Shown here: positions 42,104-53,810 of the stretch, in pieces
How the letters are laid out: each line of letters opens with the position of its first letter
Numbering within the stretch: the stretch's first letter is position 1
Virus record (IMG/VR): IMGVR_UViG_3300042444_000045
Span: 53,769 to 117,768 of that record
Direction: 5' to 3' (one strand)
From: a virus
DNA length: 64,000 nt
Position numbers and translations under genes: made by a program
Notes under the pieces: generated by a model
The model's database searches: none
Seen by the model: the letters and a program-made list of their open reading frames with translations, nothing else
What the model was told of the DNA's origin: nothing

Positions 42104-42116
42104 AACATCTTACTAC
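42104..42116 (+). promoter_or_regulatory. Cassette box 1
   Basis: AACATCTTACTAC, one base off the consensus AACATCTTWTTAC, 41 bases before the ATG of the first plus-strand gene. Confidence 0.7.
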
Positions 42117-42144
42117 ACAGGTTACTAACACTAAATTTTTTACC

Positions 42145-42342
42145 ATGGAAAAAGTTTTTCACCCAGACTGCAGCTGCGGTCAACCTGTACTGTATCATAT
42201 TGATCAGATACCTGTGTTTGAGAACAATGTTCTGATTGCTATGCAACCAGGTGATGTATGGTTTCACACAAGGTGTGAAGATTGTGATTATGCCATCCTT
42301 GTTGCTAATTCACCAGAAGAAGAAGATGAGTTGCCCTTTTAG
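42145..42342 (+). CDS. Small cysteine-rich early protein
   Basis: 65 residues from the ATG at 42145, which follows the cassette box; an upstream ATG would cross it. C-x-C (CSCG) and CEDC pairs with nearby histidines suggest a zinc site. The acidic end is EEEDELPF. It is the first gene of the early plus-strand cassette array. Function unknown. Confidence 0.75.
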   Translation: MEKVFHPDCSCGQPVLYHIDQIPVFENNVLIAMQPGDVWFHTRCEDCDYAILVANSPEEEDELPF

Positions 42343-42358
42343 GGCATCTCATTTTTCT
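42326..42358 (+). terminator. Cassette 1 terminator overlapping the stop codon
   Basis: ATGAGTTGCCC and GGGCATCTCAT pair with a single mismatch around a TTTTA loop holding part of the TAG stop, followed by TTTTTC. Box 2 begins two bases later. Confidence 0.8.
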
Positions 42359-42360
42359 TG

Positions 42361-42373
42361 AACATCTTTTTAC
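42361..42373 (+). promoter_or_regulatory. Cassette box 2
   Basis: AACATCTTTTTAC, 33 bases before the ATG at 42394. Confidence 0.7.
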
Positions 42374-42393
42374 TTAATCTTAAATTATATATT

Positions 42394-42564
42394 ATGAAGA
42401 TTAAGAAAGGAATGAAGTTAGTATTTAATAATAGAAGTGAAGTTATTATTAAAGGAAGTAATGATAGAGTTAATGGTATGATTGTTACTGATGGTAATGA
42501 ATATAGTGTTGATTTTATTATGAGATGGTTAGAGTTTGGTTTTGTTAAATTAGAAGGGGGTTAA
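42394..42564 (+). CDS. Small early protein
   Basis: 56 residues from the ATG at 42394 (MKIKKGMKLVFNNRSEVIIKG...). The start at 42358 would lie upstream of and across the box, so it is less likely. Beta-rich (SEVIIKGSNDRVNGMIVTD) and ends EGG. It looks like a small SH3/OB-type barrel; function unknown. Confidence 0.7.
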   Translation: MKIKKGMKLVFNNRSEVIIKGSNDRVNGMIVTDGNEYSVDFIMRWLEFGFVKLEGG

Positions 42565-42575
42565 TACCCCTTTTC
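42554..42575 (+). terminator. Cassette 2 terminator with stop in the loop
   Basis: AAGGGG and CCCCTT pair, and the TAA stop lies in the GTTAATA loop. A TTTT run follows, then box 3. Confidence 0.75.
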
Positions 42576-42578
42576 TAA

Positions 42579-42591
42579 AACATCTTATTAC
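42579..42591 (+). promoter_or_regulatory. Cassette box 3
   Basis: AACATCTTATTAC, 32 bases before the ATG at 42611. Confidence 0.7.
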
Positions 42592-42610
42592 TCTATCTAA
42601 ACTAACACTT

Positions 42611-42811
42611 ATGAAAACACTTAAACAAGTGCAATACTGTGCTATTGCCATTATTTCTTTAGTATTCTTTGAGGCTATGCTAACTATGGGTACTGTATTC
42701 CGCTTTGAGGATTACAACTGGTTTGCCTGGTTTATGCAGTCTGTAGCATTTGCATTTGCAATAACTACAGCCTTGAGAGTAGAACATGAAACAAGTAAGG
42801 AGGGTCAATGA
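42611..42811 (+). CDS. Small two-segment membrane protein
   Basis: 66 residues with two hydrophobic segments (YCAIAIISLVFFEAML and WFMQSVAFAFAITTAL) and a polar end (EHETSKEGQ). Probably inserts in the host inner membrane early in infection. Role unknown. Confidence 0.7.
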   Translation: MKTLKQVQYCAIAIISLVFFEAMLTMGTVFRFEDYNWFAWFMQSVAFAFAITTALRVEHETSKEGQ

Positions 42812-42822
42812 TCCTCTTTACT
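42799..42822 (+). terminator. Cassette 3 terminator with stop in the loop
   Basis: GAGGG pairs with TCCTC, with the TGA stop inside the loop, then TTTACTT. The stem is short; the position fits the series. Confidence 0.6.
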
Positions 42823-42827
42823 TATTG

Positions 42828-42840
42828 AACATCTTTTTAC
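42828..42840 (+). promoter_or_regulatory. Cassette box 4
   Basis: AACATCTTTTTAC, 32 bases before the ATG at 42860. Confidence 0.7.
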
Positions 42841-42859
42841 TTATCTTAAAACTAATAAC

Positions 42860-43096
42860 ATGGAAAAGAGAAATGCATTATTTGTAGTAACCTATTTTGC
42901 TATAGGTTTATTTGGTGGTTGGTTATTAGGAGCTATGACTTCTAATGATAGACCAAGAGCACAGAATATTAAGGCTGAATATTATCTTGAGTTAAAGAAA
43001 GATGGTTCTGCTGTATTAGAAGACATTGGCGGCAATACTTATCATTGCCCAAAGCTAGAAGACATTGCTTCTGTGTTAGAAAGAGACAACCTGTAA
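42860..43096 (+). CDS. Small membrane-anchored protein
   Basis: 78 residues: a single N-terminal membrane segment (ALFVVTYFAIGLFGGWLLGAM), then a polar domain (AEYYLELKKDGSAVLEDIGG). Type II anchor with a soluble outer or periplasmic part. Function unknown. Confidence 0.7.
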   Translation: MEKRNALFVVTYFAIGLFGGWLLGAMTSNDRPRAQNIKAEYYLELKKDGSAVLEDIGGNTYHCPKLEDIASVLERDNL

Positions 43097-43110
43097 TGGG
43101 TTGTCTTTTA
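43085..43110 (+). terminator. Cassette 4 terminator with stop in the loop
   Basis: GACAACC and GGTTGTC form a perfect 7-base stem; the TAA stop lies in the 7-base loop; TTTT follows. Confidence 0.85.
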
Positions 43111-43118
43111 CACACAAG

Positions 43119-43131
43119 AACATCTTATTAC
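43119..43131 (+). promoter_or_regulatory. Cassette box 5, before a non-coding RNA
   Basis: AACATCTTATTAC, 20 bases before the base of the RNA stem at 43139; no open frame of note follows until box 6. Confidence 0.7.
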
Positions 43132-43138
43132 TTATATT

Positions 43139-43235
43139 GATATAACAAGGAATGTTTCCAGGGGGAGCAGGGCCAGCCGTGGCTACTGCTTAATATACCT
43201 ACGAGAGGAATCCTATGGGGAACACTTGTTATATC
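43139..43235 (+). ncRNA. Candidate structured RNA 1 (about 97 nt)
   Basis: GATATAACAAG (43139-43149) and CTTGTTATATC (43225-43235) are perfectly complementary, closing the RNA. Inside, TGTTTCC pairs with GGGGAACA (one G-T pair and a bulge), and AGCAGG-GCCA/TGGC-CTGCT forms a second hairpin with a GCCG loop. The inside is much richer in G and C than flanking DNA and has no long frame. It takes the place of a gene in the cassette series. Confidence 0.7.
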
Positions 43236-43247
43236 TTTTTATATAAT

Positions 43248-43260
43248 AACATCTTATTAC
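43248..43260 (+). promoter_or_regulatory. Cassette box 6
   Basis: AACATCTTATTAC, 38 bases before the ATG at 43286. The leader also holds AAAACCAACA. Confidence 0.7.
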
Positions 43261-43285
43261 ATAAGATAACTTAAAACCAACAATT

Positions 43286-43489
43286 ATGATTACAGCATTT
43301 TTATTAGAAGGTAGAACAGCAAGTCTACTTGAAGAACTAAACGGCATCTTCATCCTTGCAAGAGGAGAAGGATTAGACAACACAGAAGTTGAGGACTTAT
43401 TGCTCCTGCACACTGATGACTTAGAGCATTATGTTGTGCAGTGCAGAAGAGATGAAGAAGTTGGTTTAGTGCAGTTAGGGGGACAATAG
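43286..43489 (+). CDS. Small early protein, acidic helix-rich
   Basis: 67 residues: TAFLLEGRTASLLEELNGIF, then DNTEVEDLLLLHTDDLEHYVV. Acidic, helical, with no membrane segment. Possibly binds a host protein; this is a guess from size and timing. Function unknown. Confidence 0.7.
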   Translation: MITAFLLEGRTASLLEELNGIFILARGEGLDNTEVEDLLLLHTDDLEHYVVQCRRDEEVGLVQLGGQ

Positions 43490-43505
43490 TTCCCCTTTAT
43501 TTTTT
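43477..43505 (+). terminator. Cassette 6 terminator with stop in the loop
   Basis: GGGGA pairs with TCCCC around a loop containing the TAG stop. TTTATTTTTT follows and runs into box 7. Confidence 0.75.
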
Positions 43506-43518
43506 AACATCTTATTAC
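43506..43518 (+). promoter_or_regulatory. Cassette box 7, before a second RNA
   Basis: AACATCTTATTAC, 7 bases before the stem of the second structured RNA. Confidence 0.7.
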
Positions 43519-43524
43519 TCAATC

Positions 43525-43597
43525 TGATATTGAGGTAAAGTGGTAGTCCCATCCACATTTAAAGCTGGGCATAGTTAGGTAGTACACTTATATCATT
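43525..43597 (+). ncRNA. Candidate structured RNA 2 (about 73 nt plus terminator)
   Basis: TGATAT (43525-43530) pairs with ATATCA (43590-43595) and AAGTG (43538-43542) with CACTT (43585-43589), with a bulge on the 5' side. GTGG/CCAC or CCCA/TGGG hairpins can form inside. There is no usable open frame. A strong terminator follows directly, so box, RNA and terminator form a complete unit. Confidence 0.6.
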
Positions 43598-43628
43598 AGG
43601 GGGCTTAGGCTCCCTTTTTTCTTTTTTT
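43598..43628 (+). terminator. Terminator of structured RNA 2
   Basis: AGGGGGC and GCTCCCT pair (one G-T) with a TTAG loop, then TTTTTTCTTTTTTT. Confidence 0.9.
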
Positions 43629-43641
43629 AACATCTTTTTAC
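43629..43641 (+). promoter_or_regulatory. Cassette box 8
   Basis: AACATCTTTTTAC, 46 bases before the ATG at 43675. Confidence 0.7.
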
Positions 43642-43674
43642 TTAACCTGTATTAATCCCTTAAATTATTTTATT

Positions 43675-44070
43675 ATGAAAAGTTCAGAGAAATTGAAAGC
43701 CTACAAGCAATCACAAGCAGATTACAATGATGCAAGTGCTGTGATTGATGGAATCCGCAAGCAAAGTAGTGAGATCCGTGACATTAGTGTCAGTTCTAAC
43801 TTGGTCATTGACAGAGCTTCAACAGAGAGACAGTTCTTGTTTGCTCTTGGCATCTTGTCTCAGCAGATTACAAGTTGTCCACTACTGAATCTTCCTGATG
43901 CGGAGTATATAGAGAAACGTGATAAGATCACTGCTCTATGGAAACTTATGCAGGAAGAAAAGGCTTGGGTTCAGTATGCTAGTGAACTGCGTAGGTATAC
44001 CTATGAGCTGGAAGACTTGCTTGATAGTGATGACAAGTTTCAGCTGTTGGAATATCCGAAGAAGAAATAG
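43675..44070 (+). CDS. Early helical protein
   Basis: 131 residues, mostly helical and polar. An N-terminal coiled-coil-like stretch (EKLKAYKQSQADYNDASAVIDGIRKQ) and a C-terminal helix (ELRRYTYELEDLLDSDDKF) flank a central CPLLNLPDAEY. No family recognised; may be a host-takeover factor given the early cassette. Confidence 0.75.
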   Translation: MKSSEKLKAYKQSQADYNDASAVIDGIRKQSSEIRDISVSSNLVIDRASTERQFLFALGILSQQITSCPLLNLPDAEYIEKRDKITALWKLMQEEKAWVQYASELRRYTYELEDLLDSDDKFQLLEYPKKK

Positions 44071-44100
44071 GGAAAGGGAGCTTCGGCTCCTTCCCTTTTT
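44069..44100 (+). terminator. Cassette 8 terminator with TTCG loop
   Basis: GGGAAAGGGAGC pairs with GCTCCTTCCC (one bulge) around a stable TTCG loop, followed by TTTTT. The stop TAG is at the base of the stem. Confidence 0.92.
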
Positions 44101-44105
44101 ATTTG

Positions 44106-44118
44106 AACATCTTATAAC
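44106..44118 (+). promoter_or_regulatory. Cassette box 9
   Basis: AACATCTTATAAC, 31 bases before the ATG at 44137; one base off consensus. Confidence 0.65.
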
Positions 44119-44136
44119 TTAAACATAAACTATACT

Positions 44137-44334
44137 ATGGACACAGAAACTGTATTTAAAGTTATTACTATGCTTGATGCAAGAATAGGAATATGTGAGG
44201 GATTACTCAATGGAACAATTGATGAAGACTTTGACATAGCTTACGTATGTGGTGAACAAAATGCTCTCACAGATTTAAGAGATCACTTGCAAGGGTATAT
44301 TGAGCTACAAGTAGCACAAGTAGAAGGGACCTAG
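44137..44334 (+). CDS. Small early acidic protein
   Basis: 65 residues: VFKVITMLDARIGICEGLLNG then DFDIAYVCGEQNALTDLRDHLQGYIELQ. Two helices joined by an acidic turn. The last motif resembles small helical dimer-type proteins. Function unknown. Confidence 0.7.
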   Translation: MDTETVFKVITMLDARIGICEGLLNGTIDEDFDIAYVCGEQNALTDLRDHLQGYIELQVAQVEGT

Positions 44335-44343
44335 TCCCTTTTA
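44324..44343 (+). terminator. Cassette 9 terminator with stop in the loop
   Basis: AAGGGA and TCCCTT pair around CCTAG, which contains the stop. TTTT follows just before box 10. Confidence 0.75.
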
Positions 44344-44348
44344 CTTAT

Positions 44349-44361
44349 AACATCTTTTTAC
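44349..44361 (+). promoter_or_regulatory. Cassette box 10
   Basis: AACATCTTTTTAC, 30 bases before the ATG at 44379. Confidence 0.7.
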
Positions 44362-44378
44362 TTAAACTAAACTAAACT

Positions 44379-44519
44379 ATGGAAGAGGTACAAATACAGC
44401 TCACATGGGATGAGCTACAAGTGGTGTTAGCTGCAGTTAGGCATGTCAAGAACCAAGTGGACAGTGACAAGCTTGACACAGCATATGTGAAATTAAGCAC
44501 AAAGTATAAGGGGGTATAA
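44379..44519 (+). CDS. Very small early protein
   Basis: 46 residues (MEEVQIQLTWDELQVVLAAV, then a polar helix ending TKYKGV). Box 10 precedes it by 30 bases. Helix-rich; function unknown. Confidence 0.65.
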   Translation: MEEVQIQLTWDELQVVLAAVRHVKNQVDSDKLDTAYVKLSTKYKGV

Positions 44520-44535
44520 TGCCCTCTTATTCTTC

Positions 44536-44546
44536 TGCCTGCGGCA
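44536..44546 (+). other. Small hairpin preceding box 11
   Basis: TGCC-TGC-GGCA. The same hairpin appears before box 12 (44997-45007) as TGGC-TGC-GCCA: the middle base pair changes from C-G to G-C while pairing is kept. Confidence 0.6.
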
Positions 44547-44555
44547 CCTTTTAAT

Positions 44556-44568
44556 AACATCTTATTAC
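44556..44568 (+). promoter_or_regulatory. Cassette box 11
   Basis: AACATCTTATTAC, 52 bases before the ATG at 44608, the longest leader in the series. Confidence 0.7.
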
Positions 44569-44607
44569 ATAGATAGTATATTGTTTAACCCTTTAATTCT
44601 TTTTATT

Positions 44608-44958
44608 ATGTCAGATTTCTCTGAAACTCGTTCTTTAGTTGCTTATATGCAAGCAGTACAGTCTCCTAACCTTAACATTGTCAAGGGCAAGGAAAAGACA
44701 AACCCTAAAACTGGGGAGCTCTACACACCACGTTATGTGCAGTTCCTCAAGCCTGATGGTGGTGTTCTTGGTACTGCTATGCTTGCAAGCAAGATTGAAA
44801 ACATTACTGCGGCAAATGCACGTGACTTGGACGTGTCGTGGGTAGAGGGTGTAACCGAGGGAGGTTCACCTGTAAAAGGCTATATGGTACACGGACGTAG
44901 CACTGCTGAGGTTATCAGCACGTTCAGTGTTGCAGACTTGGCTACTATTGGTGCCTAG
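44608..44958 (+). CDS. Early protein, tandem paralogue A
   Basis: 116 residues from the ATG at 44608, chosen because the 44581 start lies within the leader shared with its paralogue. The core matches the next cassette: SLVAYMQAVQSPNLNIVKG against SALDFMKSIGATNLNIQQG, and VSWVEG...PVKGYMVHGR...EVISTFSVADLATI in the same order. C-ending codons are more common than in neighbours, which may mean higher expression. Function unknown; likely soluble. Confidence 0.75.
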   Translation: MSDFSETRSLVAYMQAVQSPNLNIVKGKEKTNPKTGELYTPRYVQFLKPDGGVLGTAMLASKIENITAANARDLDVSWVEGVTEGGSPVKGYMVHGRSTAEVISTFSVADLATIGA

Positions 44959-44964
44959 TGAAAC

Positions 44965-44995
44965 AGAGTGCGGAGAAATCCGTACTCTTTTTTTT
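44965..44995 (+). terminator. Cassette 11 terminator
   Basis: AGAGTGCGGA and TCCGTACTCT pair over ten bases (one G-T) with a GAAA loop, followed by eight T residues. Confidence 0.93.
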
Positions 44996-44996
44996 C

Positions 44997-45007
44997 TGGC
45001 TGCGCCA
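44997..45007 (+). other. Small hairpin preceding box 12
   Basis: TGGC-TGC-GCCA, the compensated twin of the element at 44536-44546. Both are flanked by TCTG... and ...CCTT in the same frame relative to the box. Confidence 0.6.
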
Positions 45008-45015
45008 CCTTAGTT

Positions 45016-45028
45016 AACATCTTTTTAC
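45016..45028 (+). promoter_or_regulatory. Cassette box 12
   Basis: AACATCTTTTTAC, 53 bases before the ATG at 45069. Confidence 0.7.
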
Positions 45029-53720: not shown

Positions 53721-53810
53721 ATGGAAAACTATCCAAAATGGGTAAACAATCTTGTTTACTTTTTAGCCGGAATTGGCTTTGGTCATATTTTATTTAATTT
53801 TATACTCTAA
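53721..53810 (+). CDS. Very small membrane protein
   Basis: 29 residues (MENYPKWVNNLVYFLAGIGF, GHILFNFIL). A single hydrophobic segment. The one-base gap after the previous stop and the close spacing after it support translation; too short for certainty. Confidence 0.5.
   Translation: MENYPKWVNNLVYFLAGIGFGHILFNFIL

Follow-up and report, generated by a model that had tools for sequence, protein, structure and literature searches.

One slot in the early gene array of a crAss-like virus carries a promoter-like box but no coding gene, which raises the question of what the box serves. The array lies in the stretch of DNA analyzed here (the window; 64,000 nucleotides, positions 53,769 to 117,768 of IMG/VR record IMGVR_UViG_3300042444_000045, which has 117,768 bases in all). 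After the fifth box of the array, a 97-base element at positions 43139 to 43235 stands in place of a gene. It is, with near certainty, a structured noncoding RNA family with compensatory changes beyond chance and no conserved reading frame, and the RNA is very probably real and functional. Among the viruses of Bacteroidota, crAss-like phages rank with the most abundant, and few of their early accessory genes have a known function.

A structured RNA with compensatory changes

The closing stem described in the original prediction is perfect over 11 bp, with GATATAACAAG (43139 to 43149) fully complementary to CTTGTTATATC (43225 to 43235), and the element folds at -38 kcal/mol (none of 200 shuffled sequences equaled it). 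The inner hairpins noted there are present, two in number, while the high G+C content holds for the inner part and not for the whole element (0.47). From the 5' end, the order is the outer helix, a 3-nucleotide bulge, P1 (7 bp), P2 (4 bp), the P3 hairpin, an 8-nucleotide strand, the P4 hairpin and, after the closing arms, TTTTT. In the folding model this is a three-way junction (P1/P2, P3, and P4), more than a closed stem with hairpins, and the RNA unit should extend to the T run at 43236 to 43240. The proposed parts are as follows.

43139 to 43240, plus strand: proposed transcript of the small RNA, made up of the structured RNA and the T run; fold z score of -4.58, and covariance model scores of 97 bits and 85 bits from models whose alignments include the window sequence itself
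43139 to 43149, plus strand: 5' arm of the 11-bp outer closing helix, partner 43225 to 43235; from the sequence and outer-pair covariation
43153 to 43159, plus strand: 5' arm of P1, TGTTTCC, partner GGGAACA at 43218 to 43224; covariation in 7 of 7 pairs (model-fitted alignment) and 6 of 7 (sequence-only alignment)
43163 to 43166, plus strand: 5' arm of P2, GGGA, partner TCCT at 43211 to 43214; covariation in 4 of 4 pairs (GGGA/TCCT, GGAT/ATCT, TTGT/ACAA)
43167 to 43189, plus strand: P3 hairpin, GCAG-GGCCA[GCCG]TGGCT-A-CTGC; both-side changes in 5 of 9 pairs
43190 to 43197, plus strand: junction strand TTAATATA, consensus TTAATNNA; near-invariant in 17 sequences, partly by search design
43198 to 43208, plus strand: P4 hairpin, CCT[ACGAG]AGG; invariant in 17 sequences, among them L109 and L110, which were found by a pattern without P4
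43225 to 43240, plus strand: 3' arm of the outer helix and TTTTT, a terminator-like end; T runs also follow the RNA in L043, L017, and L113, but not in every member

The first nearby IMG/VR contigs were identical to the window or were L004, which is mostly 82 to 93% identical in DNA and has a protein gene replacing the RNA. A wider contig set gathered via a ParB-like neighbor included L043; this contig has an early array of its own, built on a different box, that holds the RNA at 93% identity. A 23-base core pattern matched 21 contigs, and looser patterns added more. In total, homologues were found in 29 IMG/VR contigs, not counting the record that contains the window, and the set comprises 17 distinct cores. 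Every match to the patterns that did not require P4 nonetheless has it.

Covariation far exceeded both controls in model-fitted alignments. To avoid model-fitting bias, we also used an alignment made by MAFFT from sequence only (A5), and here too compensation in relatives, the check proposed in the original prediction, was found. Both-side changes occur in 15 of 23 pairs versus 6.5 in shuffles, 91.5% of cells are paired (79.9 in shuffles), and there are 41 compensatory cells (11.9 in shuffles). The covariation score is 0.321, compared with 0.125 after shuffling and 0.04 to 0.12 when the partners were slid by 1 to 3 columns. None of 500 shuffles attained any of these four values, and RNAalifold gave essentially the same three-way junction unprompted. 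P1 variants include TGTTTCC/GGAAACA, TGTATCC/GGATACA, and CACACA/TGTGTG; in lower P3 we found GCA/TGC, GCG/CGC, GTA/TAC, GTG/CAC, and GAC/GTC. The outer helix shows both-side changes in 8 of 9 modeled pairs, but only 69% of its cells pair, and it is variable or lost in some members. In one contig (L177:2890-3120), a second long outer stem (TGTATAACATTGTATT / AATACAATGTTATATACA), far larger than that of other members, surrounds the RNA core.

A protein-coding reading was rejected. As predicted, there is no plus-strand frame of at least 40 amino acids inside the element, and the sole long plus-strand frame (GEQGQSWLLLNIPTRG...) is broken by stops in the members where P3 is GCTAGYCGTAGC (L090, L017, L096, and L178). 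A mechanically called minus-strand open reading frame (43213 to 43413) overlaps the element at its 3' end only.

No known family covers the RNA in Rfam 15 at gathering and E-value thresholds, where sub-threshold matches were noise, and BLASTN against sequenced phages and plasmids returned only short chance-level matches. A pattern of the junction plus P4 matched the genomes of 84,980 species twice, both times apparently inside coding sequence. Neither pattern nor BLAST searches turned up a true copy among bacterial genomes, plasmids, and sequenced phages, and we found no conserved RNA of crAss-like phages described in the literature searched. Several weaker candidates were set aside: matches in G009 and G011 (L111 and L112) lie inside a primase-like gene, one in L180 lies within a coding frame, and those in cr55_1 and cr1_1 (13.6 bits) were taken as noise. 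A match in Bacteroides phage BI-TP1 (L100:3000-3014) covers only the P3 tip and the following TTAATATA, at 10 to 12 bits and a BLAST E value of about 2, and is unproven. The surrounding intergenic stretch (L100:2950-3060) has AGCCAGTCGTGGCTA and TTAATATA in common with the RNA, is closed by GGGAAGG/CCTTCCC, and folds with a z score of -2.81; it is possibly a distant relative or a chance likeness.

An accessory gene of crAss-like phages

The virus in the window is a crAss-like virus of Bacteroidota. Three of its proteins match phrog families (terminase, phrog_6681; portal, phrog_6547; major head protein, phrog_11589), and the terminase is closest to those of Crassvirales phages (22 to 26% identity). 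The box of its early array, AACATCTT(A/T)T(A/T)AC, occurs 12 times in the array, between 42104 and 45016 and always on the plus strand, and the window as a whole has 16 matches to it versus 2.15 expected. In most slots, a terminator-like hairpin comes after a single small gene. The box of interest is the following.

43119 to 43131, plus strand: early-array promoter-like box AACATCTTATTAC, fifth of 12, serving the RNA; from the array copies and the same box-to-core spacing in L043, L017, L118, and L178

In the window and these four contigs, a locally repeated box stands about 67 nucleotides before the conserved core, and its sequence differs among them (AACATCTTATTAC in the window and TACTTCTTCTTAC, CATCTTTATACTTA, TACAACTCATTAC, and CATCTTTATACTAT in L043, L118, L017, and L178). 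A recurring upstream element is also found in L115 and L179, at a slightly different distance. The idea that a small RNA may be made separately behind its own box is supported by this spacing in five phages, by the covariation, and by the unconserved frame. The proposal that the RNA replaces a coding gene agrees with the close relative L004, where a protein gene follows the corresponding box (L004:2095). The marine-type contigs L077, L090, and L087 showed no repeated box; in the first two of these the RNA comes after a lipoprotein-like gene, so that it may be cotranscribed there. No neighboring gene common to all lineages was found near the RNA.

The early arrays of the window (42104 to 45016), L043, L118, L017, and L178 are similar in layout and have different boxes, the whole box set seemingly being replaced together; such joint turnover suggests coevolution with the phage polymerase. 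The idea that the array holds several structured RNAs is not supported: its second noncoding slot, the companion "RNA 2" at 43524 to 43626 (box at 43506), folds no better than shuffles once the terminator hairpin is set aside (z score, -0.41). Noncoding slots elsewhere gave z scores of -0.99 (L004:2828-2975) and -0.73 (L043:5424-5545).

A crAss-like large terminase (phrog_6681) was found in every RNA-positive record with a detectable one (14 of 19 and 3 of 3 records), the remainder being fragments. The terminases of four lineages (window type, marine type, G026, and G038) are mostly 22 to 33% identical to each other, and where two phages have terminases of about 25% identity, their RNA cores are still 90 to 96% identical. 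In L043, the core is 94 to 96% identical to those of the marine types L077, L084, L090, and L093 (terminases, 25 to 26%) and 100% identical to that of L083, a fragment without a terminase, versus 87% for L178 of its own lineage (terminase, 74%) and 83% for L017. The RNA is thus closer across lineages than within the lineage of L043, which points to horizontal exchange. Between L043 and L057, all 104 of 104 RNA bases are the same, while the flanking slots are about 70 to 94% identical. The most divergent members, carried by G038 (L177) and G026 (L096), share 58 to 83% of the core. A GroEL-like chaperonin gene (phrog_5725) is present in an RNA-positive crAss-like contig of G026 (L116:6883-8460).

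The RNA is absent from the near relatives G005, G010, G011, and L004/G028, although RNA-negative G011 and RNA-positive G009 have terminases that are 93% identical. No convincing match was seen in 14 Crassvirales or related records, crAss001 and phi14:2 among them. The distribution best fits an accessory gene that crAss-like phages pass to one another and that is under strong constraint.

Possible partners and roles

Computation shows the conserved covarying noncoding structure, the promoter-box context, the accessory distribution, and the exchange between lineages; transcription, a partner, and an antagonist role are inferred. A core that stays 90 to 96% identical where terminases share about 25% must touch something very constant. 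The reading we favor, tentatively and with somewhat less than even confidence, is that this small RNA gene of crAss-like phages encodes an early, structured RNA that acts in trans, binding a conserved partner so as to aid host takeover or counter-defense. Its transcription would probably start early, at the array box in front of it, and the enzyme would presumably be the injected virion RNA polymerase, which transcribes the early genes of crAss-like phages, a TROVE protein gene among them (PMC8375218, PMC10136315). The transcript would fold into the three-way junction and end at its own closing stem and U run. P1, P2, and lower P3, in which only pairing is conserved, would serve as a scaffold, and the near-invariant P3 tip, the TTAATNNA junction, and the CCTACGAGAGG hairpin would form a fixed recognition surface. 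The partner would most likely be a host protein or ribonucleoprotein, which the RNA may antagonize as a decoy or inhibitor. We prefer such a host-directed role to a core phage function because the RNA comes and goes among close relatives. It has been suggested, without proof, that blocks of short early genes in crAss-like phages are related to defense (PMC10136315).

Several points weigh against this proposal. No association with any defense or counter-defense gene was found, and a phage partner would explain the restriction to crAss-like phages equally well. The homologues were collected with patterns taken from the core, so its invariance is partly by design, and because P4 never varies, the alignment speaks neither for nor against its pairing. 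Self-termination is not universal, since the outer helix or the T run is missing in some members, and the RNA of L096 by itself folds no better than shuffles (z score, 0.53).

The restriction to crAss-like phages keeps a virion polymerase partner possible, and a transcription regulator that binds this enzyme or the host RNA polymerase, in a 6S-like role that tunes or stops early transcription, is an unlikely alternative. The RNA was found only in records with crAss-like terminases, it is located in the early array, and a giant virion polymerase homologue has been reported in all crAss-like phages (PMC8375218). However, it is missing in close relatives expected to share the polymerase (G011 versus G009), the promoter boxes have diverged and the RNA has not, and there is no 6S-type match in Rfam.

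An antisense regulator that uses the TTAATNNA junction and the hairpin loops to pair with a host or phage mRNA also seems unlikely to us. The single-stranded junction and the loops belong to the best conserved parts, and many described phage small RNAs work by base pairing (PMC12197685), but the invariant bases include paired P3 and probably P4 positions, which antisense action does not need, and a single mRNA site is unlikely to be fixed across the hosts of such divergent phages.

We consider it improbable that the RNA is an RNA anti-CRISPR (Racr) or another mimic of a defense RNA. It is a solitary RNA unit right after a promoter-like box in an accessory region of a phage, as for reported Racrs (PMC10651486). 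A three-way junction is unlike a single repeat, however, and since the junction-plus-P4 pattern gave only coding-like matches among the 84,980 species, no bacterial repeat there has that part.

The conserved unpaired core and covarying stems resemble the conservation of an aptamer or ribozyme, but a self-cleaving ribozyme, packaging RNA, or cis-acting riboswitch is very improbable: the downstream genes differ and none is constant, a new box comes next in array phages, absence from near relatives indicates that the RNA is not a core packaging part, and Rfam gave no ribozyme or riboswitch match. Equally poor is the case for a mimic of the 23S rRNA sarcin-ricin loop that sequesters a ribosome-targeting toxin or translation factor. 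The invariant hairpin shares a nine-base identity (UACGAGAGG) with the core of that loop. In A5, however, the position equivalent to A2665 is A, T, C, or G and the bulged-G position is C, so the loop fold is not conserved; plain CCT/AGG pairing accounts for the invariance equally well, and the resemblance was spotted after the fact. This likeness and one to a Cas12a handle, both seen by eye in the alignment, were dropped because key positions vary.

Least credible is a phage Y RNA acting as scaffold for a Ro60/TROVE-like protein: the early TROVE-annotated protein of crAss001 (PMC8375218) belongs to phrog_850, and RNA-positive G027 encodes a member of this family at a distance of 3 kb from the RNA, but phrog_850 occurs in only 1 of 19 RNA-positive records searched (G000, 118 kb, and G009, 113 kb, lack it), PF05731 in 0 of 39 records, and crAss001 lacks the RNA, so that an obligate pair, sought via TROVE, DUF7788, and phrog_850, is largely refuted. 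The gene in G027 (L118:11072-12535) carries DUF2828/DUF7788 and is of the same family as the early gp96 of crAss001. Beside gp96, in the early region of crAss001 (MH675552, 95965 to 96869), about 0.9 kb has no annotated gene, and the RNA model gave no match there.

Comparison with known structured RNAs

The RNA shares with 6S RNA, including 6S-Flavo, a closing stem, a similar size, and a possible RNA polymerase partner. It differs in having a three-way junction with two hairpins, whereas 6S RNA is a single long hairpin with a central open bubble, and in the lack of an Rfam match. With Y RNA and bacterial Yrl RNA, which act with Ro60 (TROVE), it shares a length of about 100 nucleotides and ends paired in a closing stem, and crAss-like phages encode Ro-like phrog_850 proteins; unlike for these RNAs, that protein family rarely accompanies it, and Rfam gave no Y RNA match. 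The packaging RNA (pRNA) of phi29 is likewise a phage-encoded structured RNA with a three-way junction and a closing stem. Unlike pRNA, the RNA described here is accessory, being absent from G005, G010, G011, and G028, near relatives with the same terminase type. The function of the RNA can be tested directly, given a tested structure model, invariant bases that stand out clearly, and presence/absence pairs of close relatives.

Like Racrs (PMC10651486), it is a small noncoding RNA encoded as a solitary unit in a phage genome with its own promoter, here predicted from the box. Unlike them, it is a three-way junction of about 72 nucleotides with a covarying scaffold, almost unchanged among divergent phages. 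It may be, although we regard this as rather doubtful, that a hitherto undescribed RNA family, which crAss-like phages exchange as a single gene, is an RNA-only counter-defense or takeover effector whose invariant junction surface inhibits a conserved Bacteroidota machine, in contrast to the repeat mimicry of Racrs.
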